Origin: Zygnema cylindricum | Taxonomy: Eukaryota > Streptophyta > Zygnematophyceae > Zygnematales > Zygnemataceae | DNA: 64,000 nucleotides | Direction: 5' to 3' | Assembly: GCA_037447655.1 (NCBI GenBank) | Contig: JBBHKE010000697.1 | Coordinates: 123,907-187,906, forward strand | Part shown: positions 11,236 to 64,000 of the stretch, one piece after another | Numbering within the stretch: the first letter of the stretch is position 1 | Layout of the letters: the number at the start of each line of letters is the position of its first letter | The notes under the pieces: generated by a model | Database searches by the model: none | What the model was told of the DNA's origin: nothing | Seen by the model: the letters and a program-made list of their open reading frames with translations, nothing else | Program-made: the position numbers and the translations under genes

Positions 11236-13292
11236 AAGTGTCTCTCTCCACAAGCCTCTCGATTTTTCTTTCACACTCTCTCGCTCTCTCTCGCTCTCTT
11301 TCTCTTTCTCTCTCTCTCTTTTGTTCTCTCTCTCCCTTGTTTGCTCTCTCGTCCTCTTCCTCCTCTCTCTCCTCTTGCTCCTCTCTCCTCTCTCCTCTCT
11401 CTACTCTCTCCCCTCCTCCCGCTGCTCCTCTCTCCTCTCTCCTCTCTCCACTCCTCCCTTTACTCCTCCCTCTCCTCCCTCTCCTCACTCTCCTCTCTCC
11501 CCTCTCTCCTCTTTCTCCTCTATCTCTCCTTCCTCTCTCTCTTTCTCTCCCCCCCTCTTGCTCTGTCTCTCCCTCTCTCCTCTCCCTCCCTCCCTCTCCC
11601 TCTGTCTCTATCTCGGTTAATGGTAGTCAGTGTTGACGACTCGTCCAACAACTTTTTGAGATACATGGGAGTTAGAAATTGCAACACTCATTTCCTCTTT
11701 CTCTCTCTCTCCCTCTCCCTCTCCTCCCTCCCGCTCTCCTCTCTTCCCCTCCCTCCCTCCCTCCCTCCCTCCTCCCTCTCCCCCCCCCTTCTCTCCCTCC
11801 CTTCCACCTCCCTTCCTCCCTCCCTCCCTCCCTCCCTCTCCCTCTCTCCCTCTCTCTCTCTCTATCTACATATGTTTAAAATTATTAAAATAATAAAATA
11901 AAAATAAATTAATAATTTTAAAATTATAAATATATGTATATATGTAAATATATATACAAACTGTTAAAAAAAGAAAAAAACCTTCTAACGATTGAGATGA
12001 ACAAGGAATTAAAGTTTTTTTTTTTTTTATTTAATTTTTTGCAGGGAATTTACGAAGACGACAACTGTTATGAAAGCGGTTTAAACCACAACGTTTTATT
12101 GGTTGGATACAGTTTAATCGGAACTCCCTATTGGATACTTCGAAACTCGTGGGGAGAAGATTGGGGAGAGAGAGGATATATGAGAATGAAGATTAAGGGA
12201 GGTTACGGTATTTGTGGTATAAATACAATTCCCGGTTATATTCCAATTATCGACTTACCTTCTGGTGAGATTTTCCGTAAAAAATATTAAGGAAGTGGGG
12301 GGAGAGGGAGAAGAAGATATAAAGAAATAGATGTTTTTTTTTTTTGCTCTTTTTTTTTGTTTTCTCGAAAGGAAAATTTGGAAAGTACACCGCGAATCGT
12401 TATTAGCGTTATGAACTCTATATCGGCACCCCAAAATTTTGACATTAATACCTTAAATAGAATAAACTACACTATTTAAGGACGTGGACCATAATCGGCC
12501 ACGTCTCCTGGCACTAAATTAGAATGAATGACGCTAATTTTTTCTTTACACTAATAATTTCTCAACGCTAATAACGATTCGCGGTGTAGCCTTTGAAATA
12601 TTTTGACGTTTTTTGGTTTCATTTTCTATTAGCAATATATATAGATCGGATAGGCCGATATCGGCGACCATCTCTCCCTCCCTCTCTCCATAGAAAAACC
12701 CTAAAATCTCCCGAAAGAAAGCCTAAAATCAAAAACCACATTAAATCCCCTAAAAAATCCCTAGAATCCCCATTTTTTCCCCCTCAGGTTCCTGCAAATC
12801 CCGGGCCGATATTGGCGAACACGAGATCGGGTCTATGAATCCCTGCGGCTCTGGCACCTGTAAGGCCACCACTACAGGACAAACGACTTGTACTTGTTTG
12901 GCGCCCGACTTCGTCAAAGTCAATATTAGCAACAACGCGGAGACTTGCATACCGGGTAAACCTCCGTTTTAAATCCGTTTTTATCCGTTTTAATCCGTTT
13001 TTTTTCGTTTTTTTTCGTTTTTTTTCTTTTGTTTTCTGGTTTTTTGTTTTGTTAACCTGTCTTGTTTAAATTTAATATTTGTATATATATATATATATTT
13101 ATATATATATTTATTTATTTATTTATATATATATATTAATTATAATGATGCGTGTCGAATCGGAATCAGTGATTTCTTGATTTTCTTTTATCGAGGAAGG
13201 TCTTGAATGTTTTTGCACTTTTTTTGAATAAGTCACCGATATAAAGTCTATGATTTTTTTTTTTTACGATCTTTTCTAACTCTATAAATTGC

Positions 13293-23000: not shown

Positions 23001-26000
23001 AGATGTGTGGTACACTTAAAAGATTTACAGATCTGATGGGTATGTAAAAGACTTTGAACAATTTGGTTTGCGTGATTTTTTTCGTATCCGTTACAATTCC
23101 AAAGAGAGTTCTAACCGGGTTGTGCCAAGCGATTGCGACTGTAATGCGCTTCGCTACGCTAAGTTGTTGTATGTTATCAAATAAAGTCGCGCTAGTATAC
23201 ACGTGGTGCGAAGCACACGTGTCAGTAATTCACTCTTTTTCAAGTTTCGTGACGCTTGCTAACGACGAAAGAAGTGAAATCCGTACACAAGTATTATCCC
23301 TTATTTTGTTAGCCTTTCTTGAATTGATTCTCCAACGTGGTACAACCTTCGTGTGCAAATTTACAGGTGAGAAAGTAATCGTGGACCGATGCTGTACACG
23401 ATTGCATCATTCCGGCGATGGCGGAAAGGTTTTCCTGTTCCCAAAGTCTTTTTACCCTCCGATCCAAGATCAATATCTTCTCCTCTCCATTGACCACCTT
23501 CCAAAGATGGCGATGAATCAATTGACCTATGATGTACTTTTTCCACACTTGATAATTCGTCCCGTTGATGAGTCTGATCATTTCAAGCATTTGTGGACCG
23601 GTCGCCATCTTCACTCCACTCATCAAGATTGGAATTGTCATCAATCGGAAGTTTCCCCTTCCGAATTCGCTCCTTCCTCCCCTCCTCGTCGTCTACTCCT
23701 CCCTCCGGATCGCCATCGCTTGGATACGGATTTGGATCTCCTAGTCGGAGGTTTCCCCATGCGGTTTCCCTTGAAAATTCGTTGATCGACGTAGCGGCAA
23801 AAACCACCAGGGAGTTATTGAAGACGGTCTTTCACTATGTCCTTCTTCTTTTGTTTCCCCTCTTTTTGTCCAAACGGATCGGGTGGAAGAGACGCCTCAA
23901 AAGCCGATCCTCTAAAAGTAAAGGGCGCATCACTAGGTTCCGGATCCGGTGAAGTCTTGGACAGATCCGGCGGATCCGGATCTAGAGGAGGAAGAGAAGA
24001 GATGGTGTCCAAGTTGGTTTCTACTTCTTTCCCCCCCATGGCCGCCAAGTTGGCCACTTTCACTACACAAATGGAGTTCACAAGGCTCCTTTACCACTTG
24101 ATGGATCAATAAACAACGATTTCTAACAAGCGGAAGCAAAAGTAAATCACACAAGAGAGAGAGAGAGAGAAAGATGGAGAGAGAGAGAGAGCATTCCACG
24201 AAAGCCAATATATTCCACGGAGAAATTTTCTTACAAAATACCTTATCAGCTCTCTCTACGCCTCTATAAAACACTCCAAACGCTACATATCAAACTGTAC
24301 GTTCTACACGCGAAATGCGCACGCCAATCACACGACGTCAACAAACGAAACACAAAAGTACTACAAGTACAAATCACACTATATTGACCGACGTTTGACT
24401 GAATTGTCACAAGACCGCAAATTGATACATAACGGTCCACTTATACAAACGGTCCACTTATACACACTGTCCACTTATACAAACAGTCCACTTATACAAA
24501 CAGTCCACTTATAAAAACGCTAATTCGCTCGTCGGTCGATTGCACAATTGAACCTAATAGAGACAAGGGGAGGGGAGATAGGGGGAAGGGAGAGAGAGGA
24601 AGGAGATAGGGGGAGAGAGAGGAAGGAGATAAGTTTTACAGCTTCACAAACGGTAAGAATAGAGCAAGAGAGAAAATTCCGCTAACTCTCTTTCTCCCTC
24701 TGTCCCTCTCCCCTGTCTCCCTTTCTCTCTCCCTCTGTCTCTCTCCCCTGTCTCCCTTTCTCTCTCCCTCTCTCTCTCTCCCTCTTTCCCTCTCGCTCTC
24801 TCCCTCTCCCTCTCTCCCTCTCCCCCCCTCTCTCTCTCCCTCTCTCTTTCCCCCTCCCTCCCTCCCTCTCTTACTTGTATGAAGGTTTGCATAAGAAATG
24901 GCCCTGTCCTCGACTTATCTCCCTGCACCTTGTTTTACGAGATGCAAAGCAATGACACGTGTCAAACTGTGATTGATAAAAATAAAAAAATTAACGGGAA
25001 CGCCACTTTATTTTATCTTTATAATCCCGGAATTTATTGCGATCGAATTTCGACCGCGTTCGACTCCGTCAAATTCGCAAAAGAGGTAAAAAATATAAAA
25101 AAATGTTGAAGTATTTATTTTTAAGTATATAGAAAATAACACGGCAACTCTCGGACTTTTCTCCTTCGTTTCCCCTACTTTCTCCACCTTCTTCCCTTAG
25201 TTGTGTACCTTTTCTGTGCCTTTTCCATACTTTTTCTGTTCCTTTTCTGTACCTTTTCCTTACCATTTCTGTGCTTTTTCCGTAACCTCCTACGTACGTT
25301 TTCTTTAACTTTTCTATTCATTTTCCTTACCATTTCTATACCTTTTCTTTAACATTCCTGTACCTTTTCCATACCTTTGCCCTACCATTTCTGTACCTTT
25401 TCCGTACCTTTTCCACACCGTTTTCTTACATTCTCCGCACCTTTTCTATACCTTCCCGTAATTTTTCCCGTTTTTTTTGGTAAACCCTAAAGACCCTTAA
25501 AACCCTAAGAAATCCTAGAAAACCCTACCATTTCCGTACCTTTCCCTTACCTTTTCTGTACCTTTTCCTCAAGCAATTTCTGATTGTGTGCACCATATTG
25601 TGAATGATAAGCTTCCTATGCCTGCATTATAAATTCTCTAAACAGAAGAAACACACTTAAATACTCTAAATCCTGTTTGAATCTTAAGACTCCCCAGGAA
25701 TTGCGGACGATTCCATATGCATCGGTTCGCTTCGCGGTACAATCTGGAATGAACAAATCGCCGTATCGGATAATCGCCCAAAATCGCACAAAAAACCAAT
25801 ACTCTTTTCCGTTTTTTTTTTTTTTTTTTTGTTCGGTAGGTTTGTATTGCGAGGAATGACCTCGAGGCGAAAGTGTGCACCAAACCGACGATTAGGTGCA
25901 AAATAACTCAAAAAACGACGTGTGGGAAAGTATCCTTACTTTTTTCTACTTCGAAGATCAAATTTCCGGCGGCCAATGGCTTCCCTTGCAGGCCGTCCGT

Positions 26001-26195: not shown

Positions 26196-27846
26196 GATAA
26201 AAAAATAAATTTAAATAAATAAGTATAAAAATAAATAACTGAAAGAAATTATTATTTAAGGTTTAAACAAACAACAAATAATAAATAATGTATCGGTGGA
26301 AAAGGGGTTCTTCACCATTATGAAACGATCATAAATTATTTGTTCACTTTGAAAAAAAACGGTAGGCACAAAAATATGTTTACTCAAATAAATAATATGG
26401 TGTAAAAAACCATAAAAACAAATCACATATATGGTAAATTCCATCAATATAAAATCAAAGATATTTACCAATTATAAACTATTATATATTATTCGTGACC
26501 GCGAAAAATAATGCGACCCGATTTTTTCTACACGTCATTTCTACGTAAAGAATTTTAATTAAAAATTTCTATATGAAGTTTCTACATGAGAATTATTGAA
26601 TGAAAAAAATTATAAAGGAATTGAGTCTCGTAGAAAAATAAAGAAAAAATAAAAAAAATTGTGTCGGTGTAAAATTGCGTCGATAAAAAATGTTGCCATT
26701 AAAACATTGTTGTGTCGATAACAACAATTTTGTCGATAAAAAAAAAAAAAAAAACGCATCCAATGTATAATTGTGGACATAAAAATTCCATCGAAATTAC
26801 GGTCTAATATTTAGTGGTGTCTACTGAAGCAATAATAACAATAGTAATAATAATTAGAATAAAAAAATAATCATATAATAGTAGTAACAATTATAACAAG
26901 TATTTGCAACCTTTTAAATTTTTTTTGCGAAAAAAACTATTTTTAATTTTATTTTTTGTTTTGAATTTTATTTTTTTGGGTTTTTTTCTTTACATTTTTG
27001 TATCTTTTAGCGATTTGACTCTACTGTTGTTTTTCACATTTGGACTTTGACACTTTTTTTTATAATGGCTACTTTTTTTAATTACAGTTATTGTTGAGTT
27101 ATTTCTTGAATAAATTTTAATAAACTTTGTGAATAAAAAATGTTGTTCGGTTCAACAAGATATATACAAATACTGAAAGAAATACGAAAAAGAACAAACA
27201 ATCAAAAGTCCTTATGGTTCCAAATTTTAAATTGAAACAAAAGAAATGGAACAATGTTTTTCCTTTTTTTGTTTTTTTGTCTTCTTGACATTTTTTTTGC
27301 TAGTTTTTTGCTAATCTAAACTGTTTTTTTGTCGTGTGTCTTTGAGTGCATCTTGTTTACATTTGTAGTTGTATGAAAAGAGGTAGGAAAGAAGGGGGGG
27401 GGGAGAAGGAGAGGGATAGAAACGAATGGGCATAGAAGAGTGGATGAGAGGTAGAGAGAGACGACTCGACGAGGAGAGGGAGTGTCGTGCATGAGAGAGA
27501 AGCAAGGAAATCATGTATCATAACCAGCAACGTCATGCTCCAGACATATATACAAACAAAAATGAATGAGAAAGGAAAAATATATATACAAGATACAAAA
27601 GAATAAAGGTGAAGATGACCAAATGAATAAAAAAAGAGAATACTCCCCTGGCGTGAAGTGACCCCAATAATTCCCCCCCCCAGCTCTTTAGCCTGCAGAA
27701 GAGCTGGTCAAAACTGCTAAAAGCTCACGACAGCCATGGCAAAACCAATGGCCAGCTGGCACAGTTGTCAATGGAGGAACTAAAGACTCCATGTGGAACC
27801 CTTGGTTACAATAGTCGCACAAGAGCATGGAAGTCTCGCCGTCTGC
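26056..27846. other. AT-rich gene-free stretch after the protease gene
   Basis: It holds (TA)n-like DNA, a run of about 33 A (26161-26193), a short degenerate gtcgataaaaaa repeat (26660-26760) and AT-rich DNA. Around 27668-27678 a C run (G run on the minus strand) lies just past the integrase end of the gypsy element and could be its polypurine tract. No gene seen. Confidence 0.5.
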
Positions 27847-28458
27847 TCACATGTAAATGGTACATTCCGTCGCCTCCGTGATCGGCATTCTCATCGGATC
27901 CATATCCTGTGACAAATCCAGTAAGTAACAAGGTGCACAGTTCTTCAAATGCTCTCGAATTACCCTTGTATCCCCACCCTGCAAACCCAACATCCCATTA
28001 GCATCCATTTCCACCACACGAAGAATGTGTGGAGAAACATCCGTGTCCAAAGTGTCGAAAGATTGTCGTCGAAGGTACACGTAATCTCCGACTTGGTAAG
28101 ATTTCCGTTGAGGCTTGTAATTGCCACTTCGCGTGGTGGCAAAGCGCAAAGTATCCCAATGTTGGGCAATCTGCAAATTATCAAAAGCCATGGGCATCTC
28201 ACGAGCAAAATGCAAAGCACGGCGAGTTAGTTCTTCCAAGAATATGGTGTTAGACATTAGAGGCAAAGGTAAACTTGCTGCCTTCTGAATATTCCGACTA
28301 AGCAAGGTTGCTCGACCGAAGAGAATATAATACATGTTGAAATAAGCCAAGCTAGCCTGTAGCCCATGGTGATATAACCCAAGGATTCGTCTCAGACGGA
28401 GATATGTTTCTCCAAACAATGCTTTCGAAGAGCTCGCTTGAAAATTTGGACAGCTCAT
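27847..28458 (-). pseudogene. Gypsy integrase C-terminal part
   Basis: The 203-residue frame continues the integrase, with a tail block YQVGDYVYLRRQSFDTLD, SPHILRVVEMDANGMLGLQG and IREHLKNCAPC, similar to integrase C-terminal beta domains. No chromodomain is seen, unlike the element at 37.8-42.5 kb. Confidence 0.7.
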
Positions 28459-29014
28459 TCCGCCAAGCCATCGGCTTGTGGGTGATCACGACTCGTCTGA
28501 CGATGATCAATTAAAGCTTCATTCAACATCGCTTGAAATTCCCCGCGGAACTCCGTACCCTGGTCCGTGAGAACCTCCGCAAGAGATCCATATTGCATGA
28601 GAACGTGCACTTTAAAAGCAGCGGTGGTCAATTTTGGGGTCTTGTGGGGAAGAGCGACCACCTCTACCCACTTGCTAAAATTTTCAATCATTATCATGAT
28701 GTATTGTTTCCCCTTTCGAGATAAGGGAAACGGTCCGGCAAGATCCACAAACCAGCAATAAAACAATCCTTTGATAGGCAATGGTTGTAGAGACGCTGCC
28801 GATTAGAGAAAGAGGTGCGTAGTCAGTCGCATTTAGCGCATTTGTGGAGAATGGCCGCCACATCCGCTTGCATTTCGGACCACCAATAGCGTGCTTCTAT
28901 AAGGCTCAAAGTACGCTTAGTCCCATAATGGCCAAGCTCGGTATGCATCTGCTCAATCAAGGACAAGCGCTCGGTTGGCCGAGGGACATGCCGATGATTG
29001 CTGTCCGCTAGCAA
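28455..29014 (-). pseudogene. Gypsy integrase zinc-binding and core domains
   Basis: The minus strand shows the HHCC region (HTELGHYGTKRTLSLIEARY, then ILHKCAKC at about 28830). After a frame change the core runs YCWFVDLAGPFPLSRKGKQY, VLTDQGTEFRGEF and DHPQADGLAE. The D-D-E residues are all present. It would insert element cDNA into the host genome. Confidence 0.85.
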
Positions 29015-29035
29015 TCGAACTAAAGATCCGCCGAG

Positions 29036-30690
29036 TCACAGATAAATTTTGGCTCGCTTCTTTACTCGGTCTTCCTTCTCGGCGGTAGTACCGGGCCGAA
29101 AGGTTTGAGAGGAGAGGAAGAGGATTAATGGGCCGTCGCGCCATGGATTTGTGGCCGGCCTAGGGTGAGGAATAGACGAGAGACAGTAAGTGATATAGGA
29201 ACCGGCCGACATGGCCGGTACCTCGTCCTCGTCGAAATCTTGCCGGACACCGTTATCGGTGGTTCGAGGTAGTGGGTTCCGAGAAATCCCGTCGGCGTTT
29301 AAGCTTAACAAACCGGGCCGATGGATGATCTCAACGTCGTACTCTTGTAAAATTAAAGCCCATCGGGCTAGCTTCCTTGAAAGCTTATCATAGGTCATCA
29401 ACCAATGAAGGGGTAACCAATGAAGGGATCTGGCGTATGCCACTACGTATTCCTCTCCATTCAACTCTCTTTGCGTTAAAATAGCCGCAATGCCTGGCTT
29501 CCCCAAATCGGTTTGTAGGCAAAAGGGAAGCTTGTGGTTAGGAGGTCGGAGAATGAGAGCGCTGGAAAGGGCGGTTTTCAGTTTTTGAAATGCTTCTACT
29601 TGGGCGGGTCCCCAAACAAAAGGCACTTCTATTTTGACAAGGTCCTTCAGGGGAGAATCAATCGTACTAAAATTCAGTACAAACCGACGGTAATAATTGG
29701 CTAGTCCGAGAAAAGCCCTCAGACTAGTGAGATCCGTGGGGGGAGGCAGTTTGGTGATCGCCTCTACCTTAGTTTCTAAGGGAGTGATGCCCTCAGCCGA
29801 AATAAAATGGTCGAGATAGGGCACTCCCTCTGGACCGAAAGTACACTTAGTTGGGTGACACTTCAGCCCGACTTTATTTAACTCGGTGATAACCCACTCA
29901 ATATGGCGGGCGTGCTCCTCAACCGTGGCGAAAGCGATTATCAAGTCATTGATGTAGCATCGGGCAAATTTATATCCACCCAGCACCGAATCCATGACTT
30001 TTTGAAACACGGCGAGTGCGTTCTTAAGACCGAAAGGCATGACTGCCCATTCCCACTGACCATCACTGCCCCAAAATGCAGTTTTATGCCGATCTCTTTC
30101 CTCAATTTCAATCAAGTTAAACCCTTGACGCAAGTCAAGAATGCTAAAGAACTTTGCACTCCCTACATGGTCAAATATTTCCTCCGCCAAAGGCATAGGG
30201 TGGCGGTCTTGAACGGTCCAGGCATTAAGCTCTCGGTAGTCCCCACACATTCTTCGCTCAGTAAAATTTCCGTCGGAATCTTTCTTTCTAGGCATGACTG
30301 TGGGGGAGGCAAAGGTGGAATCCGACTAATAGATTAGACCGGCTTCTTCCAATTTTGCGCATCTTTTGTCCACCATCTCCCATTCCATTTTAGAGAGAAG
30401 GTGTTTCGGTTTAAAGATAGGTCAATCGTCTTCAAGTTCGATTGACATTTTGTAAGTAGAATGACGTCCAAGGTTATTCATGGAGAAAGAAAACTCATCT
30501 ATATGACGGGTGACTGGGTCACTTAATAGTGCCTGTTCCGCTTTTGTGAGACTGGAACCGAACTTCCACTTGGGCGTCTCGGGACTCTTGATAGTGAAAG
30601 CCTCCATGGCCTGAGCCAATGCAATTTGCTCATCCACGATGAGTGAGTGGCCTAACTTGTATTTTACCCGAGTTTGCTGCAAGCAGTTCC
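29036..30690 (-). pseudogene. Gypsy reverse transcriptase and RNase H
   Basis: The long frame 30295-29036 has ERRMCGDYRELNAWTV, SILDLRQGFNLIEI, KTAFWGSDGQWEWAVMPFGL and FARCYINDLIIA, then the thumb (LRAFLGLANYYRRFV) and RNase H (FCLQTDLGKPGIAAIL ... ILQEYDVEIIHRPG). The RT catalytic box is YIND instead of YxDD. In RNase H about 35 residues, including the region with the catalytic Glu, are missing at a 15-bp direct repeat (about 29399-29428). An upstream N-terminal part is in another frame (30682-30422). The enzyme is dead. Confidence 0.88.
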
Positions 30691-31009
30691 CCCAATGGTG
30701 CCAGCTACGCGTCGGAAATGCAGCTGTCTAGTGCGATGCCGGAACAAGAAACGATGAAATTGTGGATTGAACGGCTGTATAGGCCGGGATTTCCCAAAAC
30801 ATATGACTGTGGTTGAGGAAATCATAGATGGAGATGTCCTTAACCGCCGGTGTGAGAGAAGGGAAGAGAAAAAACTGAAATGGATTTCCCTTGAGACTAG
30901 GAGAGGTGTGAGAGGGAACAAGACGTGAAGGAGCAACGGTATTTCCCCCCCAAGCTGGTTGCACGGGGTGATTCTGTGCGTAGCGACCAGCTGCAAGGCC
31001 GAGACCTAA

Positions 31010-31990
31010 GACAAATGATAAAGATTGAGGATCCATTACTCTACCCAACAAAGTGCAACGCTGTCTATCCGTAAGGCCGGGGGCCGCAGTAGTGCGTGGA
31101 ATAAAATGCATGAGATGCTCCCGTTTTGTGGCTGTAGGCTCCTCTAACTCACCAGTGACATTATTCCGGAGCATGCCTGGACCGTAATGAGAGTATGCAT
31201 GGGAATTAGGGTAAGACACTAAAGTAGGAAGGGCCTTGAGGGGCTAGCCAAGTACACTAATGTTGTAATTCGGAGGGTAGTCAGTTTGGACACATGATTG
31301 GACTTGGTGGAAGGGAAGCAAAGCGGTCGCAATGTCTATAGTGGGAGGTCGTACCAACAAATTAGCCTCACGAAGACGACCAACATAAATTAGGTTCGTC
31401 CATTTGGAGCGAACCCGATGTGCCAAGAACCCATGCCTAGCGGCATCAATAATTAGTGGGGGTCCGATAAGGTGTTTTATGCGTTTATAGTCAGCCAGAA
31501 CAATTGGCCGAGGATCATTATAAGCGGCGACGTTCTCTAAAATGTATCCGACAGGCTTGGCGATGGTTTGAAGAAAATGAAGGACCCTCAAAAGCTCAAA
31601 AAACAATTTGGTACGGGGATCTGCCAAACCAAGACCTTTGCCGGCCCGAGACATTCCTTGACACTCCCACCCTCCAAAAACAAGGACTGTCAGTTCAACA
31701 TCCCAGAGATGATGATTACTAAGGATGCGGATGTCTTGTGGAAGAGCAGTGTGCATGTGTAGAAAGGTTGACTTTGGAAACAAGTGTGGATACTGTCAAT
31801 GCAGGAGATTACAGTGGTGCAATTGTGCTTTTCTAGCTAATGCATCAAATTCTACCGCATAGTAGTGACGGATGGGGAGACCATTACTTAAACATGACAA
31901 TTGTGAAGTTTCGATCCCAGCGAATAGGTCTAGAATAACTACCCCGTCCGTATGAGGACTCAGCTGTAGGGCCTTCCAACTGATTAAAAG
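31010..31990 (-). pseudogene. Cytosine-5 DNA methyltransferase domain inside the gypsy pol
   Basis: The minus-strand translation shows the methyltransferase motifs in canonical order. Motif I is VVILDLFAGIETSQ (about 31940-31905). Motif II is YYAVEFDALAR. Motif IV is VFGGWECQGMSRAGKG (about 31680-31645), with the catalytic Cys present but Pro replaced by Glu. Motif VI is GYILENV (about 31550-31529). Motif VIII is AHRVRSKWTNL (about 31425-31391). A recognition-domain block is ALPTLVSYPNSHAYS (about 31235-31190), and a motif IX-like block is EPTATKREHLMHF followed by RCTLLG. Two in-frame stops (near 31801 and 31243) break the frame. Unlike plant DRM enzymes the motif order is not rearranged, so it is closer to DNMT3 or DNMT1-type layouts. 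The likely role is cytosine methylation of element or host DNA. Confidence 0.88.
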
Positions 31991-32146
31991 GAAACCCGAA
32001 GGATTGGTTGCAAACGTCGGTATAGGAAGGATTGTCGTTAATGGATAAGATAATGTGGACTTATAAATATTGTCAAAGGAGAGAGAATTAATTAAAAAAC
32101 CCTGTTCCGCAAAGAGCTCGGGTAAGGGAGACCTATCCGGTAAAAT

Positions 32147-32635
32147 TTATTCAATCAAAAGAGAGTGGAAAATTTCCTCCCCAACGGAGTTCCCCAAAAA
32201 TGCGGGAAGAGCCGTAGCCAAGTGAGCCATAGTGGGCAAAGGTCGGCGGGCTGAAATGACAGGGAGGCAGATTTTGCGCTCCGGAAAGTGTGTCGGTCGG
32301 TAAGAAAATGTTTGGTCGTGCATGTCCACACCACCACCAATTCGGAATATAACGTCTTGACCCACCAAACACTCATAGTCGTCACATTTAGTGACTAATG
32401 CTCTAACAGCAATTTCAACGGACTCATTTTTGGTTCCTGTCTCAAACCGAAAGATGAGCGGGTCCTTTGTGATTTCGAGGACCAACTCCGTGGTCCCAGC
32501 CGAAGTAAGAAGGCGGGTAGTGGTCGCGTGAAACTTGTCTGATGTCAGACCAAGCTTGAGCGCAAATCCATATCCGAGGATCACGGGTTTGGCCCCGGTG
32601 TCCATGAGAGGAAGAGTGGGGTGAACACCGTTCAC
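32147..32635 (-). pseudogene. Gypsy aspartic protease
   Basis: The minus-strand frame reads PLMDTGAKPVILGYGFALKL, a retropepsin active site (D-T-G-A) followed by the usual hydrophobic strand. Later CDDYECLVGQDVIFRIGG corresponds to the LGxD/flap-end block. The catalytic triad looks intact. It would cleave the gag-pol polyprotein. Confidence 0.8.
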
Positions 32636-32684
32636 TGAGAATGATCCCCGTGAGTTATCAAGGAAACTGATATGGGGATCGAGA

Positions 32685-33092
32685 TTACGACGCTCTTCCG
32701 TAGTAACGGGTTGAATCGCTGAGAGACAGTGTCCCTGAGAGATTGCGGTGTAACTGTAGAGCCCTCAAAATGGCTCCCGCTGCGACCTCATCAACGAGGG
32801 GAAGGGCTTTCAATACATCCTCCAACATTGGTAAAAGAATACTTAATCGCTCCTTTACCCGATGAGCCTCATGAATAGTGCCATCCAATATGGTGAGTGC
32901 CTCTGCCGCGATGGTATGAGTTATGTCCGGTAGGAAAGGCAGAGGCTCTTTTGCAAATGAGAGTGGGACACAAGAATTTTGTAATTTTGCCCACTCGGTT
33001 ATGGTCTGCTGAGCCCTTTTCAAATGTGGCCACCCGTTGTTGGACTGTGGAATCCCGCAGGGTTCGCCCGGCCAACGACGGCATGTGGACAA
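32685..33092 (-). pseudogene. Gag-pol linker of the gypsy element
   Basis: An open minus-strand frame of 135 residues between the zinc knuckles and the protease. It is mostly helical-looking (HRVKERLSILLPMLEDVLKA) and shows no recognised domain. Position makes it part of the element polyprotein. Confidence 0.5.
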
Positions 33093-33122: not shown

Positions 33123-34641
33123 TCATTTCCGCCATGAAGCTGCAAATTGCTCTTTCACAATGGCCGCCATTGTGGCTTGAAGCTCAGCCTTCTCTCTCTC
33201 TCTACGAGAGATCTTAAGGGGAGCTTCCTCTCTCTCGGTCTCCTTTGGCAAAGTGGTTGGTTTCGCAGAACGGGCCGGAATTCCACTATTCTTTATTTGA
33301 TTTCGATAGGTGAAATTAGGGTCCTTGATGTGGCACCGATGGACAAAATGTCCCTTTTGGTGGCAATGAGTGCACGTGGCCGCCTTGTCGGGACACATGC
33401 GGGCATCGTGCCCAATTTTTCCACATTGGAAACACATTCGGTTTCCAGGACTAACAGGTAGAGTTCCCATGGCTGGCGTCTTCAGGGGCCTATTAGAAAG
33501 CCATGGGTTTTTAGGTGGAGAAGAGACGGATTAACCGGTTCTCTGTGAGGAGGTTTGAAATGCTCATGGGCGTCCCACCACGATGTATGCATCTCATACT
33601 CTACCGCGTATTGAGCTGCTTGCTCAATGGTGAATTTTAGTCTATACATCTTACTGGGGTGGTTTTGGATAAACCTCTTTGACGGACCTGGAAACTCTCC
33701 CACAAATTTTTGGACAGCCTCCGAATCGGATATGAGGTCTGGTAATGCCTCCCGCAGAGTTTCCATTCGAGCTCGCAAAGCAGGGGCAGTTTCCCCTGGC
33801 CTACGCTTGAAGTTTATCAACTCTTTAATCTGATCCGGATTTTGCATCCGGTACTACTCTTGGAGGATGTCAAACATGACGGAGAGAGGGTCACGTAAAG
33901 GAATGGTTCCCCCCGCTCTAGCTGGGACCGTCGCTCGGGCAGCCAGTGCATATTGACGAGGAACCTCGGAGAGAGCTGGATACAACTCATCCCCATTAGC
34001 ATCTAATACCGTTGGTCTCCCAGCCTGAAATGGGATATCCACTTGGCCGAGGACTTTTGGTAACCCGCAAAGGGGGCCACGTACTTTGTCATCGCAAGAA
34101 CATCCTCGTACTTGCGAGTGTAGAGAGTGAGGGCTGTACCACGGAGGTATCGATCGAGAAGGGAAAAAGCAACACGGAGGTCAAACCTATCGTGATATCT
34201 AAATGCCAAATCCCTCATTTCCGTATCGTATAACATACAGAAATGCGATAAGGACATGGTGTCATTTAATCCGGAAAAGCAGAAGTACATCTTACCCATG
34301 GATCCCTCTGAAGAGGAAGCCATGTCGTAAGGAGGCGGATGTGCCGGTTGTGACAAAGCTGGGCTGGTAGGGAACCTACGAGTGTGTGGAGTTGGAAAGG
34401 TTTCCTCAGGGAAGTCTTCTTCGGTCCCCTCTAGGTATGACCTAGATGAAACTGAGGATAATGAGGACGTGGATGTCAGACCAGATCGTACTGACAGCGA
34501 TCTTTGATCCGCAATCGGATCGTACGTGGTCAAGGATTCCGGAAAATCCGAATGATCTAACTCTTGAGAATGGTAAAATGTACCGCCTCGGGTGGAACCG
34601 GATTGGTAAAGAAGGTTATCCCAATCCGTGAGCATAAACAA
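33123..34641 (-). pseudogene. Gypsy gag with two zinc knuckles
   Basis: The first frame (34641-34003) has an acidic Ser/Pro-rich leader and a capsid-like helical part. It continues after a frame change at 33847-33482 (IKELINFKRRPGETAPALRA and EFPGPSKRFIQNHPSKMYRL, a Retrotrans_gag-like region). The third piece (33470-33123) carries two CCHC knuckles, CFQCGKIGHDARMC and CTHCHQKGHFVHRC, both intact. The protein would package element RNA. Confidence 0.8.
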
Positions 34642-35479
34642 AGGGAGAACCCTTGACTACGATAATAAAATGTTTCGCACGACCTAACCGAGATGCAACA
34701 CGTGTCAAACCAATCCACTCGTCTAGTCAACACACTCGGTCACTATCAAGACCCGATGGTCGTATGTAGCAAGAAGTCGGTTTACCAAAACCTTTACCCT
34801 GCAAACAGTTGGCAAGGCCAAAGGGCCACATCTATAAAAACTAGAAAATTGCTATCCAAGAACCCTTGGTTGCAGATCTACAGCAACACAGCCGGGAAAA
34901 GGTCTACACAGTGCCACCCACGGCAAGATCTAGCTAGAAATCCCACTCCAGATAGTCACACAAAAATCGAAGGCCACTTAGGGCCAGATAGCATGCAGGG
35001 AAAGCAAGAAAATGCAAATGCTCAATGAGAAAGGTTCACGATGGAACCCCTCCACGCCGATCCCGCACACTAGTGTCCACACTAAATCGGAACGCTCCTA
35101 CACCCGCAAGGCATCGACGGCTACTTACAAACACCTTTAGTGCTCTGGTGAGCACTAAGGGTGAACCAAACTTGTTCGAAGCAAGTCGGGTTTTGCAGAG
35201 CTTCTTGGGGAAAATCCGCTCCACGAAATTTGCTCCAAGTGTTCTTCGAAATAACCCTCCGCGAGACCGGTTCCGTACCGTGAAGATGTACGTCGTGGAA
35301 GGTTACGGGATCAATGGAAGGAAAGGAAGAAAGTGTTCGGTTGAAGAAAAATAACCAATAAGACACACAAATGCGATAGATAGGGAAAGTGTGTTAGAAT
35401 AAAGTCGGAGGCCGCTCAAACTCTAGATATACAGCCAAACTTGTGACCAGAATAATCCAAAGCCAACAGCCAACACTAA

Positions 35480-35700
35480 TTCCACTTGGAAAACCCTAAT
35501 TCCATTTGGAAAACCCTAATTCCAAAGCCAAATCCTAATTCTAGACGGCCAAGACTCCAAATCTGCAGCCAAAGAATAAAAGGATACCGACCTAAGGACT
35601 GGAATCAAAAGGAATAAACCCTAAATATGTTGCAATCCTAATTTTGCAGCCAAAACCCTAATTCTGCCTCCGAACCCTAATTCTGCAGATTAACCCTAAA
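35480..35700 (+). repeat. Degenerate AACCCTAATTCTGCAG repeat
   Basis: About ten copies of a unit like ccctaattctgcagccaaa, spaced 18-30 bp, with telomere-like CCCTAA cores. Confidence 0.6.
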
Positions 35701-37501
35701 TTTGATACAAAATTTAGGTTTAACACAAAAGCCAAGAAGTATAGTGGCAACAGAATAAGAGACAAAGATTGAAAGAAAGAAATAGCGGAAAACAAAAACA
35801 AAATGTTTTTTTTTTTCATATGAAATAAAATTTATATTTTTAATAGATTTTTTATTTTTATTAGCTTTTGGACAAGAATACTCAGCCACAAGGTAGCCAC
35901 TAGGCTCTTGGGTCTTCAACGTATTCTTTACAAGAGTTATCTCATACGAAAGCAACGAAGCAAAATGAATAATTCCAACCAAAAACAAGGAAAACTCCAA
36001 AAATGGCCAAAATTCACCTTTCCATTCCCAACCGAAAATACAAACAACACAAAAACAAACACCCAAACCGTTCAGCTGTCCGTGGGAAGGGCAGCCGGAT
36101 CCGGATGCTTCTCCACAGGAACTCCAATCCACCACTTCCCAAAAATGACACAACTTGGAGGGAAACCTTCCGGACTTAGCTTTAAGCCGCGTGGATTAAA
36201 TGCGTGGGCAGAATTACAAGGGAGAATGTACGTAAACTATCTAGCCTCTACAGCTAGCTAGCAAAAGGAAAGAAGAAACTTGAGCAATCGGTGAGAGAGA
36301 AGAGAAAAATCTTGTCCAAAAGCTAGAAATTCTAAGTCAGAAAATAGACTAAGTATTAGCTACGCTACGCCTACGCAAACCCTAACCTAAGTCTAGGCTA
36401 GTTCTCATGAACGAACTACTTAAGGTGTTTGGCCAATAGGCGGCCAACATCGTCTGCCTTACGCCCAACAAAATCCACCGTCCGAGGGTAAAAACCCTCC
36501 CTATCTACATGTATGCGTGAACCTACGTGGGTTCACGACTTTAAGGAATAAAAGTACATTGAAGCACCACCAATGCTCCCGGAAATCACGCTTCGTCGCC
36601 AAACGATACTTGGCGTCTATACTCCAAAATCGCGTTCGTACGCACAAAACGAAACATACCGCACAAAACACTCTTGGAAATCGCGACGCGTCGCCCAAAC
36701 GATATTTGCGAAAGTACCATCGAGATCGTGTACCTACGAAATGAAACGAAACAAACAGTATGCACAAAATTAGTATGTATTCAATAAGACGCGTACGCGA
36801 ATCATGTACACGTCACAAAAAGTGAACCAACATGACTCTGCACGTGCGAACAAAACTTATATATGCATGCCGAAATATCGCGCGTGTGTACATGATATCG
36901 TGCGCGCGCGTCGGATAACTCCCGTGCGTGCACAATATCGTGCATGCGTGCGAAATATCGCGCATGCGTGCTACCGATACCATGCGGCATGACAGGAGGG
37001 AGAAAGAGGGAGAAGGAGAGGAAGACGAGAGGAGGACAAAAGCCTAAGTGAAACAGATTTTGACGATAATGGATATGTACTTTTTTGAAAGGTCTTGACA
37101 CATATATATTATGTATATAGTTTTGACCATCAAATATACTATCATTGTCAAGCGGGTGTTTTTCTTTTTTTGACGGTGTTACGTTTTGGTCGCATAAACA
37201 AACCGACGTTTGTTATAGCTTTGCATTCAAATAAATTTATATTATTTATTTGCATTTATTTATGCTATAGCTTTCCCATTCATTATTGTGTAATTCTTGT
37301 GGGCCCTTGATCGTAGGTTGGTGCCCAAATTTTATACAAAAAAAATAGAAATAATAAATAAATAAAAAATATATATATAAATATATATATGTATAATAAA
37401 TTTTAATTTTATGCACACGCTCTTTGGCGGATAAAAAGGATGTTGTGGACCGAAGATCAACAAATTTGGACTTAAAGTCTTAGAATTTGTTTGTGATCAA
37501 T

Positions 37502-37552
37502 TTGCGGTCATAGATGGAAGTCTTTGAATAGAACTTCCATCTATGACCGCAA
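37502..37552. repeat. Perfect 20-bp inverted repeat (hairpin)
   Basis: TTGCGGTCATAGATGGAAGT and its exact reverse complement are separated by 11 bases. It lies in AT-rich DNA 0.2 kb before a gypsy gag. Confidence 0.9.
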
Positions 37553-37770
37553 CTTTCTATTTAAATTATATTATTATAATATATATGATACTTTATTTCT
37601 TGGAATATTTATAACTCTTTAGAGTCAACTCCTCTCCCTTTAGTACTAACAAGGAAATCTTTTGTCATCTTTTGCCTGTATCTCCAATTGAAGAGTTGAG
37701 ATCGAAGATATTATTTACCATATCATATAATATTATTATACTATTATATATATATACATAAAGATACTAT

Positions 37771-38330
37771 TTGTTCAGGTTTTCTGAATCTCCTCAAGAA
37801 TTGGAGGCACTTAAGCTTCGTAACGCACATTTGGAGAGTGTAGTTTCACAATTCCAAAATCAAGCCCAGTCATCCGCGAGTGGCTCCAACTCGAAGCCGA
37901 AGAGGAAGGCATCCGATGAGTGGGATCCTTACAAGAAGGTGGACCTTGAGACGTGGCTCTTCACGGTGGAGTTCTACTACCTCCAATTTCCCGTGCTGGA
38001 GGACAACGAGCAAATACTGTATATGGGAGGAATCCTGCGTAGGGCGTCCGCGGCGTGGTGGCGCTACATGGTGCAAAAAAACAATGACGAATAATTGGGA
38101 GGCGTTAAAAAAAGAGCTCATTTAAGCGTGGGAACTGGTGAATACAGTCAAAACGGCCTAAGACAAGGTCAGAAACCTCAAACAAAGATCATTGGTGTCA
38201 AAGTATTCGCAAAAGTTTTTGGATCTTCAAAAGCAAACACCCGGTGTGTGAAGAGGATGTCAATCGATATGTGAAGAGACTCCAGTACTCCGTCCGGCAA
38301 AACGTGGAGCAATGGCATGTGTATGATAAG
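37771..38330 (+). pseudogene. Chromovirus-type gag remnant
   Basis: It reads a coiled-coil-like leader (LEALKLRNAHLESVVSQFQN), then DPYKKVDLETWLFTVEFYYL and RRASAAWWRYMVQ, the Retrotrans_gag signature. After stops it continues RDKVRNLKQRSLVSKYSQKF in other frames. At least three frame disruptions. Confidence 0.75.
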
Positions 38331-38832: not shown

Positions 38833-39530
38833 GTGGACTACAAGTGGAGTGATTGTCTTCATGTTCTCGCACTTGATGGGCATGACGTCGTCCTCGGCAA
38901 ACCGTGGCTCCAAAAGTGGAATCCGTCGATTAATTGGAGGAAAAATGAACTTATGTTGGAGCAAGGAGGCATAAAGCATGTTTTTCGGAAGGAATCAATT
39001 TGTAAACCCACGAGGGAGGGACGCTTGCTCTCGGTTTTGCAATCGAAGCGGGCCATGCGTAAAGGGGAACAAATCCATATGGCGCCTTTTACGACCATGG
39101 ATCCAACAAAGACAAAGGCCGTGGAGAATTGCCTATCCCGGAAACGTGTTGGAGTAAAGGAATTTTCTCGGATTATGCTCTTTTATCGACGTTTCGTGGA
39201 GGGGTTTGCACGTATGACGGCACCACTTACAAACCTCTTAAAGTAAGAGAGGTCGCATGACTGGGGAGAAGCACTAAAGGAGGCATTTAACAATTTAAAG
39301 GAACGATTGGCTACCGCTTCTGTGTTACTTGTTCCCAACTCCGAGAAATAGTGGATGTTCGTCACAGATAATAGTGACAAGGCCATTGGGGTGTTCTTCA
39401 ATACAAAGGGCGAAAACTTGAACCGGTGGCATATGAGTTTCGGAAAATGAAACCGCAAGAGTTGAACTATGAAATCCACGAGAAAGAGAGGCACGCGATC
39501 TTCCACGCTTTTCAAGTGTGGCAATGTTAA
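38833..39530 (+). pseudogene. Gypsy protease end joined to RT thumb and RNase H fragments
   Basis: ALDGHDVVLGKPWLQKWNPS is the protease-to-RT block of gypsy elements. It runs directly into RIMLFYRRFVEGFARMTAPL, the RT thumb, so the RT palm with its YxDD box is deleted. RNase H pieces follow (EALKEAFNNLKERLATASVL, then LNYEIHEKERHAIFHAFQVW in another frame). Confidence 0.75.
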
Positions 39531-41427: not shown

Positions 41428-42390
41428 GTTTAGACTCCATTTTTGTGGTCGTGGATTACCTCAGTAAAATGATCCATTTTCAACTCGCAAAGACCACGAC
41501 GAAGACCATGGAAATGGCTAACTTGAAATGGCTAACGTGTTCTTTAACAAAGTCTTCCGTTACCATGGTCTACGAAAGAAAATCGTGACCAACGGTGATC
41601 ATAAGTTGTGAGTCGTTTTGGGACTCAAATCTTTAAGCTTTGTGGCACGGAATTGACAATATTGAAGGCCTATCACGCGCAAACGAGCGGCTAAACGGAG
41701 ATAATTCACCATACTTTGGTAGATAAGCTGCGAGCTTATGTAATAATGCATCGATGAGATTGGGTGAAACATCTCACGGCCGTCGAGGTGGCCTACAATA
41801 GCGCGGTGCACTCTTCCACCAACAAAACTACATTTGATCTCAATGGGCGACAACCACTCCTACGAAAAAATCTCGTCTTATCGGCTATAGACACCACGGC
41901 GGCGATGGGATTTTCTCGCCTAATTACGAAAAGACCTCAACGAAGCCAAAGAGGGGTTGGAGCGCGTCAAGCATCAGTAGGAGCTTTACGTTAATATGCT
42001 GCGGCGTGAAGGGAAATTTCGTGTGGGAAATAGAGTGGCCATAAACATGGCCAATCTCACACTGCTTAGGACAATGAGACGAAAATCATCAACGAAATTC
42101 AATCGCCCGATTAAAATAACGGCATATATTAGACTTCTCACTTATTGCGTTGATGTTCCAAAAGGGTGGCGCATCATGATGTTTTGCATATCTCATAACT
42201 TTCGAGATCTCGATGAGGTGTACCTGCACCGGTCTTTGGCACAGAAGACGATTATGAAGAACAATCCATCCTCAAACATCGGGTGCTTTAACAGCGGAAT
42301 CGACAAAGTGACGCAACACTTGGTGCGATGGAAAGGCTATGGCCCGGAGGCAAAGGTCGCAAATGGTCAACCGGAACCGTGACCGGCCGT
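41428..42390 (+). pseudogene. Chromovirus integrase and chromodomain remnant
   Basis: Pieces in changing frames read FVVVDYLSKMIHFQLAKT (integrase core), then WVKHLTAVEVAYNSAVHSST, then FRVGNRVAINMANLTLL and a VDVPKGWRI block, and finally TQHLVRWKGYGPEAKVANGQ, which is the chromodomain core (YLVKWKGY). Chromodomains target chromoviruses to marked chromatin. Confidence 0.75.
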
Positions 42391-60105: not shown

Positions 60106-60960
60106 GTGGAATCCTATTCAGCTGTGGAGATTTCACCCGAGGCCCGAGCAATAAGCGAGCATCGTCTGCATCTGCTCCACCAACTATATCCTCAACAACT
60201 TTGCATGCCCGCCATTTCAAAAGCTCATCAAAGTCTTCCCCATAATGTGGAGAACATAATGACATCTCATCTAGCCAGTCTGGAAGTGTGCATCTGGTAG
60301 TGGCAGGATGGCCTTGTGAAGGATACTCCCTAGCTGGACAAAGAAAAGGGCATAGTGACAGCTGGAGTAGAACATTTTTTCAGATGATTCAAGTCATCTC
60401 ATAGATACAACAGCTCCAAGACACACCAGTGGGGAACGTTTTTAAGAATGTCCACCCAGGGGAGGATCAACGAAAACAGGTTGTTGACAGCTGGAATCAA
60501 GTCACCCAGATTTTAGGAGTTCCATTTGTTTTCGATGCAGCGCAAATGGGATCCCGAGCACATAGAGTTAGGGCTTATTGGACCAATATGATTCTGCTCC
60601 TCGTCCCCTGCAATTTTTAAAGCGGCAGCTCTTAGAACCTTGGAACTTTGTGCAGGAAATCTTAGGGAAAGGGCGGACGTCAACACCCGTAACGAAAACA
60701 GACAACTCTTTTTTTTTTCGGTGCAACAAGCCAATATTTCCACGCCGAGCACTTCCCACCTTGGTTTCCTTTCCTTCTAGCCACGCATATCGGAAAGGAG
60801 CAGCGGGTATGGTCTTTGATAGCATAACGGGTATTTGGACGGCAACGACAATCGCAGAAATATAATAGTCAATGGGATTCCTTCTGGACACAACGGCCGC
60901 ACCAGGTATTTCAGACCTCTAGAGTACAGCTTATTCGAGCAAAGTATGAATCAAAATGCA
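60106..60960 (+). pseudogene. Cytosine-5 DNA methyltransferase domain in the second gypsy
   Basis: In plus-strand frames: motif II ESYSAVEISPEARAISEHRL (60106-60170); motif IV LVVAGWPCEGYSLAGQRKG (60294-60350), with the catalytic Cys in P-C-E instead of P-C-Q; motif VI region VFKNVHPGEDQ (Glu of ENV replaced by Lys); motif VIII RAHRVRAYWTNM (about 60558-60592). After a frame change come a recognition-domain block ALPTLVSFPSSHAYR (60748-60792) and a motif IX-like MGFLLDTTAAPGISDL (60872-60919). Motif I was not recognised. At least two frameshifts and several stops. The shared (A)LPTLVS(Y/F)PxSHAY and TTAAPG blocks link it to the minus-strand copy. Confidence 0.82.
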
Positions 60961-61266
60961 TTCACATGGGTAATCAAGCATGCTCTTTCTTTTTCTAGTC
61001 TCCAGTGTCCAAATTCTCGGGCTATTTACCATCAAGCTCATCAATTAATGGCAATGCAAGCAACTTTTCAGCTTGAGGGGGGGAGAAAAATGAGAAAATT
61101 TATCATTCCCTACCGAGGTTTCCCTAATATGGGGAGGCGGTACATGAAGGAAAACTTAGCAGTTGTCAGACTAGTGTTTCTGGAGATGGAGGGGTAAAAG
61201 TAGACCACGTAGGATTGGAATTGACCTCACCTGGGGGTAGACCAACGAGCCTAGGTGTATTGAGCC

Positions 61267-61594
61267 ATGGAAATGGATTGGACCTTAGATGAACAGTTGG
61301 ACCCTCACCAGAAGGCCGAGCTATCTAAACTATTGGTAAGTAACAAGCAGGTGTTCTCTCGGTCAAAAATAGATGTCAACATCTACAAAAGAACCCCTTT
61401 TCCAATTGATTTGATCGATGAGACAGTAACTATTTAGCAAAAGCAGTTTCCTCTCAGCTTTACGGAAAATGAGTTCATCTGGGCTAAATTTTAAACCTAG
61501 GTGGACGTCGAATTGGTTCAGGAGAGTATCGCACTCCATGTGTTTGCTTCCTCGACTGTTTTCCCTCCCAAGAAGGACTCATCCGGGAAAAAAA
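61267..61594 (+). pseudogene. Reverse transcriptase N-terminal remnant, cut by copia insertion
   Basis: The frame reads LDEQLDPHQKAELSKLLVSN, KQVFSRSKIDVNIYKRTPFP and, after stops, FASSTVFPPKKDSSGKK, the start of a gypsy RT (F...L..F.I...S...PV..V.KKDGS). The sequence changes to a copia LTR at 61595 within this conserved block. Confidence 0.75.
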
Positions 61595-63262: not shown

Positions 63263-63514
63263 GTGGTCAGATTTCTGCAATCGGATGACGATGAGTTCTT
63301 TACTCTCACAAAGGATCTCATGGAGGGACCTCAAGAAAACATGTGGATTATGGACTTCGGATGCTCTTCCCACATGTGCGGCAACCGGGCTTACTTCAAA
63401 GCCCTCACTCCGATTCCCACTCGTCGCATTTATTATGCAGATGACAGCAATGCTGAGGCTAAAGCAAGGAAGTTGGATAGCTTGTGGCAGCAATGGTCGT
63501 CAAAAGAACTTTGA
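63263..63514 (+). pseudogene. Copia protease fragment
   Basis: NMWIMDFGCSSHMCGNRAYF is the copia protease block (W.lDSGAS.Hm). The catalytic D-S-G reads D-F-G, which would be inactive. It follows a short acidic segment and runs into IYYADDSNAEAKA. Confidence 0.75.
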
Positions 63515-63689
63515 TGTTTCTATATTCCAAAATTTAAGAAAATTTTGTTTTCACTTCGTCTTTAATGAAGGGTTTGAAATCTACAAAGAATGGGGAAAAG
63601 GTAGTAAGAAAGATAAGAGAGTAAATTTAGAAGAACCGTCAAACTTGCACACCGGATAGACTCGCTAATGAAATTGACCAGATTCTCCA

Positions 63690-64000
63690 ATGTCCTTCCG
63701 AAAAATGTTTTGTGGCATAAGAGGCTCGGTCATGATCATCATGCGAGACTTGATAAAATGGTAAAACAAAATATGATAGATGATGTTAATTTAGGCCAAA
63801 AAAGCTCTCATGTATGTGATAGGTGTGCTCTGGGAAAGCTAAATAAGTTACCCCTACCTCATGCCGCGGATAACTGGGCTACGCATTTGCTACAAATCAT
63901 TCATTCAGATATGTGGGGGCCGTCAAAAGTCCCTTCCCTCAGTGGCAACCGGTTTCTGGTCACTTTTACCGATGATTTTTTTGGATACAGTAAGGTTTAC
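63690..64000 (+). CDS. Copia GAG-pre-integrase and integrase start (partial)
   Basis: An open frame reads VLWHKRLGHDHHARLDKMV, then CDRCALGKLNKLPLPHAA (zinc-binding), then IIHSDMWGPSKVPSLSGNRF and FTDDFFGYSKVY, where the first two Asp of the integrase core region lie (HSD.WGP, TDDF). The frame is open to the window end. Its start is not visible, since it is part of a polyprotein. Confidence 0.8.

Follow-up and report, generated by a model that had tools for sequence, protein, structure and literature searches.

Several retrotransposons are known to carry their own cytosine DNA methyltransferase. Those described by de Mendoza et al. in 2018 include DNMT3-bearing gypsy elements from the alga Klebsormidium and DIRS and LINE elements from Symbiodinium (PMC5890265); the first-pass annotation of this DNA had cited that work for charophytes and dinoflagellates. 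The same text proposes self-methylation for related elements. It reports that SymbioDIRS enzymes methylated CG sites when tested in yeast and that the KnitGypsy enzyme gave no activity there, the latter a result that the authors call inconclusive (PMC5890265). A 2025 survey mentions that some DNMT3 members belong to LTR and DIRS elements and cites the 2018 paper (PMC12344493).

We analyzed a 64-kb stretch of Zygnema DNA, referred to here as the window. Using stop-to-stop frames and Pfam, we traced a Ty3/gypsy relic over positions 34656-27688 of the minus strand. Its domains run in the order zinc knuckles, DTGA protease, C5 methyltransferase, reverse transcriptase (RT), RNase H, integrase zinc domain, integrase core, and PHD finger, as follows.

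33126..34656, minus strand: remains of gag, spread over several frames and including two CCHC zinc knuckles at 33126-33530
32147..32764, minus strand: aspartic protease (DTGA); Asp_protease_2 at 7e-4 and 20.7 bits, sub-threshold against a cut-off of 24.3
30728..32146, minus strand: DNMT3-like C5 cytosine methyltransferase domain (PF00145), with internal stops at 31796 and 31244
30326..30727, minus strand: linker from methyltransferase to RT, frame unchanged, with a counterpart in copy 2
29036..30325, minus strand: RT and RNase H (RVT_1 8.9e-22, RT_RNaseH_2 7.2e-14); YIND replaces YxDD
28805..29035, minus strand: integrase H2C2 zinc-binding domain (3.3e-15, one TGA taken as X)
28455..28802, minus strand: integrase core (rve 7.7e-11)
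27847..28485, minus strand: integrase C-terminal region, placed by position alone; Pfam match not significant
27691..27867, minus strand: PHD finger (PF00628, 2.9e-8), in frame behind the integrase C terminus
27671..27684, minus strand: polypurine-tract-like run of nine G, seen by eye directly past the last stop

The order protease-RT-RNase H-integrase with a Ty3-type RT is that of Ty3/gypsy elements, and the Ty3 RT is the nearest solved RT to that of the element (3.5e-55). At the gag end, the zf-CCHC match was sub-threshold (0.0029, 18 bits; cut-off, 20.8), two C-x2-C-x4-H-x4-C motifs are legible directly, and the N-terminal gag pieces gave zero Pfam matches. From protease to RNase H (29036-32764), the shared frame holds 7 stops in 1,243 codons, the terminal one included, compared to 53 to 82 in the other five frames. 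This low stop count in one shared frame implies that the methyltransferase is part of Pol and not an insertion in another frame. We consider the region very probably to be a dead Ty3/gypsy copy with a DNMT3-like methyltransferase between protease and RT.

The first-pass annotation had described a gypsy element encoding its own methyltransferase in one minus-strand reading. The C5 domain does lie in the frame of protease and RT, and that frame is the same throughout. However, six stops that the annotation left unmentioned (32147, 31796, 31244, 30728, 30422, and 30326) interrupt it between protease and RT, and “encodes” overstates what is a pseudogene. Its methyltransferase span of 32100-30900 was too short, as the domain covers about 32146-30728. 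The six in-frame stops imply that this copy yields no working enzyme. Elsewhere in the copy, gag and integrase are split among several frames, RT has YIND in place of YxDD, and substitutions have removed two of the eight zinc ligands of the PHD finger.

The quoted motifs were all found on the minus strand, in the quoted order and in one frame, with DTGA upstream of them and the gypsy RT downstream. LDLFAGIETSQ and AVEFD are within piece 32146-31799; GGWECQGMS, ENV, and HRVRSKWTNL are within piece 31795-31247; and TDRQRCTLLGR, a motif IX/X-like block, is within piece 31243-30731. The HMM search that the annotation had suggested matched the C5 methylase family, with PF00145 at 2e-8 for the entire domain (stops as X) and at 1.3e-7 for piece 31795-31247 alone (31.8 bits versus a gathering score of 22). 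This family score and the order I, IV, VI, VIII are those of a C5 methyltransferase. The domain also matched PHROG 116 (3.6e-13) and phage methylases (best 3e-13), with 540 of 50,697 phage records matching at E up to 1. In a single-sequence search, motif I lined up with DNMT3A at the correct place, with a score of its own that was not significant, and a profile of 107 relatives picked it up (7.9e-5) while reporting no score for the C-terminal methyltransferase piece. The IX-like block is an assignment made by eye: pairwise it did not exceed shuffles, since 90 of 400 reached the DNMT3A score and 128 of 400 reached that of the best of the 107 relatives, and in the fold model this region is aligned to DNMT3A. 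No introns are apparent within the domain. We rejected a DRM identity, in line with the annotation, which had called capture from a host DRM gene unlikely, because the motifs run I-II-IV-VI-VIII in one frame and are not permuted (VI-X before I-IV).

Catalytic motif IV (31650-31670, minus strand) reads Trp-Glu-Cys, keeping the Cys with Pro changed to Glu; in copy 2 it reads Trp-Pro-Cys. Motif IV was recognized in 148 of 169 viral, bacterial, and archaeal relatives, whose viral loci were partly picked via a motif IV pattern that did permit W and E, and all 148 have Pro-Cys (145 Ser-Pro-Cys and 3 Phe-Pro-Cys). A looser pattern, applied to the remaining 21, showed Pro-Cys in 3; it showed no motif IV in the other 18, which include short or broken reads. 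The Glu may reflect either decay or a trait of the lineage.

DNMT3 was the nearest class by profile, Foldseek, and VIA-align, an assignment in which profile and fold model lean on phage sequences and the single-sequence margin over M.HaeIII is small. Fold modeling without an alignment was discarded (pLDDT 30). A PDB search returned DNMT3A at 7e-5. In a comparison set picked by likeness to the window sequence, the methyltransferase was up to 35% identical to viral or bacterial enzymes and 29% identical to human DNMT3A (rank 121 of 153 rows), and human DNMT3A is itself 40 to 41% like some of those prokaryotic or viral enzymes. The alignment-based scans took the best 80 of at least 454 viral methylases and, from bacteria or archaea, the best 80 of 82. 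For a tree, 155 of the 169 passed a length and motif filter, exact duplicates were then removed, and 152 relatives were run with human DNMT3A as the sole DNMT3; long branches dominate, and no credible sister of the methyltransferase emerged. The 169 relative loci, with flanks of up to 3 kb, contained no match to the RT, integrase core, or PHD finger of the element at E 1e-3. Single-sequence searches gave no confirmed relatives of the methyltransferase or RT in IMG/VR and no relatives of the element in GTDB, and they found none in IMG/VR for a C-terminal block that is common to both copies.

Two features found in this analysis were absent from the first-pass annotation, namely, the PHD finger and a second copy. 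A PHD finger is a histone-reading module. Positions 27691-27846 alone match PF00628 at 2.9e-8 (34 bits versus 24), and the finger shares its frame with the integrase C-terminal region. A TGA at 27847-27849 splits the first ligand pair from the rest. Six of the eight C4HC3 zinc ligands are left (one Cys is now Tyr and one Ser), which implies a PHD-derived relic and not a working finger. The best solved relatives were PHF12, the KDM5-type demethylase Lid, KAT6A/B, DPF3, and PHF21A, several of which bind H3 that lacks methylation at K4. The finger was seen in copy 1 only. Algal gypsy entries of sequence databases may also contain PHD fingers. The literature searched, which covers few subscription journals and so does not prove absence, gave no PHD-bearing gypsy element among the matches listed. 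A cited title names CR1-like non-LTR elements that have a PHD, and Jockey ORF1 appears among the 20 of 528 matches listed. The sole close case that we found for a PHD after a gypsy-like integrase was Ginger1, in the available part of its description (PMC2836005).

The second copy was found by comparing a profile built from 107 of the 169 relatives, all full length (window left out), with the 867 stop-to-stop frames of at least 40 residues. Below E 0.5, the profile matched only two places in the 64-kb window, copy 1 (pieces at 4.3e-16 and 7.9e-5) and copy 2 (60246-60617, plus strand; 1.1e-9 and 0.0012).

60106..60916, plus strand: copy 2, diverged methyltransferase relic with broken frames; motif IV AGWPCEGYS
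61237..61587, plus strand: copy 2, N-terminal part of RT (score 75, reached by 0 of 300 shuffles; highest 48)

PF00145 matched 60246-60401 alone at 2.5e-7. By tblastn, copy 1 matched copy 2 in three stretches over 60106-60916 (29, 38, and 46% identity; best E, 3.7e-22); blastn between the copies gave only a 21-base chance match elsewhere. The RT of copy 2 starts about 320 bases past its methyltransferase and matches the RT linker of copy 1. Beyond 61237-61587 no further RT was found in copy 2, and its protease, gag, and the rest of RT were not above shuffles; thus, the element type of copy 2 is assigned from the RT start. Both copies have Trp in the catalytic motif (GGWEC and AGWPC), at a position that is Ser or Phe in the 148 of 169 relatives with a recognized motif, and both have the block ALPTLVS-P-SHAY.

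The alignment of the two methyltransferases spans 221 codons, with 37.6% identity. By codon position, identity is 49, 64, and 34% at positions 1, 2, and 3, compared to 26, 26, and 25% in shuffled pairs (highest of 1,000: 35, 38, and 34%), and fourfold sites within identical residues have the same base in 14 of 51. Silent sites are randomized and the protein is not, which implies that selection maintained the enzyme through much of the period after the two lineages split. Each copy decayed after this long phase of selection. Two copies give neither a rate nor a date, and dN/dS is unmeasurable with silent sites saturated. The sequences suggest that the element lineage is long-lived and that the methyltransferase was retained for a long time.

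No paired LTRs were found near the element by ungapped repeats, blastn, or local alignment with block shuffles. One candidate, the 3' side against 36001-38000, had a direct score of 44, above 40 shuffles (maximum, 38), but was rejected because it covers 45 bases and its position is not LTR-like. In the first 210 bases past the open reading frame, repeat scores of 34, 24, and 22 were within the range of 100 shuffles. A primer binding site (PBS) for initiator tRNA was not found at up to 3 mismatches. The nine-G run after the last stop resembles a polypurine tract (PPT), and an adjoining LTR was not found. From the set of LTR, PBS, and PPT, only this run is visible, by eye, and either decay or truncation could account for the absence of the others. 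CpG observed/expected ratios were 0.82 for the element, 0.75 for the methyltransferase, and 0.82 and 1.25 for the flanks; CpG is not clearly depleted, so there is no trace of heavy methylation.

The window contains many retroelements. Another gypsy RT-RNase H relic lies at 39148-39447 (plus strand; 29% identity to the RT of the element, 9.9e-10), and chromodomain-like text, LVRWKGYGPE, was seen by eye at 41981-42379 with no Pfam match. One copia relic (63344-63838, plus strand) matches Pol_BBD and gag_pre-integrs; another (23312-23692, minus strand) has a weak copia gag match under the cut-off (0.0036). Short arrays flank the element on both sides (25482-25527, 35472-35524, and 35637-35699); their units are like AAACCCTAA or AACCCTAA and look like degenerate telomere repeats of the plant type, which might suit the green lineage. 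Host gene exons on the plus strand at 1377-2042 and 11922-12287, amid long CT-rich low-complexity stretches, match a PAN domain (2.9e-4, just under the cut-off) and a papain-like C1 peptidase (6.9e-19), respectively. Together with the many retroelements, these exons mark the DNA as eukaryotic.

How the methyltransferase came to lie in Pol can be read in several ways. A host gene or pseudogene trapped by chance between unrelated element pieces, with no role in the life of the element, might be considered because only one locus is complete, that locus is broken, and LTRs were not found. Yet the domain shares its frame with the protease and RT on either side, and its apparent lack of introns argues against a trapped host gene. 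A fragment in one locus only, the alternative named in the first-pass annotation, is ruled out by a diverged copy 28 kb away with the same methyltransferase-RT order. The RT neighbor and private features of copy 2 (motif IV Trp and ALPTLVS-P-SHAY) largely refute chance capture, which we regard as highly improbable. It is more conceivable, though still improbable, that similar methyltransferases entered two related gypsy lineages through separate captures and that the constraint acted in host genes; the codon test does not distinguish whether selection acted within elements or, ahead of two captures, within host genes. An identity of just 38% and the unrecognizable protease and gag of copy 2 would fit two captures. 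However, both methyltransferases are directly upstream of the RT linker, and the features that they share are absent from the 148 relatives with a recognized motif IV. This shared place and these private features favor selection within elements.

The donor is a separate matter. The enzyme could come from a phage-like or other viral methylase rather than a host DNMT3, with the element otherwise working as proposed below. Viral and bacterial enzymes are nearer than human DNMT3A in identity, as is the best phage match in E value (3e-13 versus 7e-5 in PDB, from databases that differ in size). Human DNMT3A is the only DNMT3 in this comparison and itself resembles some of the same enzymes; the set was selected by likeness to the window, the tree has long branches without a credible sister, and the accessible text on Klebsormidium attributes that case to Dnmt3 (PMC5890265). 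We consider a viral donor unlikely. As for the PHD finger, read-through into a host exon could have fused it to copy 1 by chance, and its presence in one copy with two of eight ligands gone is compatible with this. It is nevertheless in frame with the integrase C terminus, is followed by its own stop and then a polypurine-tract-like run, and occupies the position of chromodomains in chromoviruses, making such a fusion rather improbable.

Taken together, we put at roughly 0.7 the probability that the whole is best explained by a long-lived gypsy lineage in whose Pol a DNMT3-like methyltransferase was flanked by protease and RT, with the integrase of this copy ending in a PHD finger. Because transposons are normally silenced by cytosine methylation, long retention of a methyltransferase by an element is a paradox. 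Two relics in a 64-kb window, with silent sites random and the protein constrained, suggest that the element benefits from the enzyme. In an active element, the protease would free the methyltransferase in the particle or preintegration complex, and the freed enzyme would methylate new cDNA or the insertion site. By analogy with the presumed role of the chromodomain in chromoviruses, the PHD finger may tether the integrase to chromatin of a given histone H3 state. The probable gain would be entry into silent, methylated chromatin, where insertions would do little harm and would not be handled as foreign DNA. We hold this mechanism as a whole, methylation of cDNA or insertion site plus chromatin choice by the PHD finger, only tentatively, with the odds somewhat against it. 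That the lineage combined a chromatin reader (the PHD finger on the integrase) with a methylation writer (the DNMT3-like enzyme beside RT) has a little less than an even chance. Animal DNMT3 pairs reader and writer as an ADD plus a catalytic domain. If the combination is real, the element mirrors this pairing in two parts of Pol, and reader and writer would let it pick silent chromatin and mark new copies. The PHD finger offers a testable idea of how the enzyme might benefit the element, which would choose chromatin when it integrates and also methylate its new copy.

Chromoviruses are chromodomain Ty3/gypsy elements with a histone-reading module at the integrase C terminus. The Zygnema element differs from them in having a PHD finger in place of the chromodomain and a methyltransferase in Pol. 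Ginger1 transposons, in the part of their description available, resemble it in having a gypsy-like integrase followed by a PHD finger in one family, Ginger1-9_HM; unlike it, they are cut-and-paste DNA transposons without RT or methyltransferase, and their PHD is accompanied by a Ulp1 protease domain (PMC2836005). SymbioDIRS-Dnmt3 and SymbioLINE-Dnmt of Symbiodinium are likewise retrotransposons with a methyltransferase, of DNMT3 class in SymbioDIRS, but are DIRS (tyrosine recombinase) and LINE elements and not gypsy with a DDE integrase, according to the accessible text (PMC5890265). Also among the closest systems is KnitGypsy-Dnmt3 of Klebsormidium nitens, described there as a gypsy element with an intronless DNMT3-type methyltransferase of non-DRM order in the Pol frame, under purifying selection (PMC5890265). 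The Zygnema element has a DNMT3-type methyltransferase within a Pol frame now broken by stops, and its two copies and their codon positions indicate the same mode of selection. The likeness refers to the published description. The repeats of KnitGypsy are described as DIRS-like, whereas no repeats were found for the Zygnema element, and “PHD” has 0 occurrences in the main text as available (PMC5890265). The literature listings searched gave no other descriptions of copy 2 or of the KnitGypsy name. The kind has thus been known since 2018; new here are the PHD finger in the same element, a diverged pair of relics with signs of long constraint, and a distinct motif IV.
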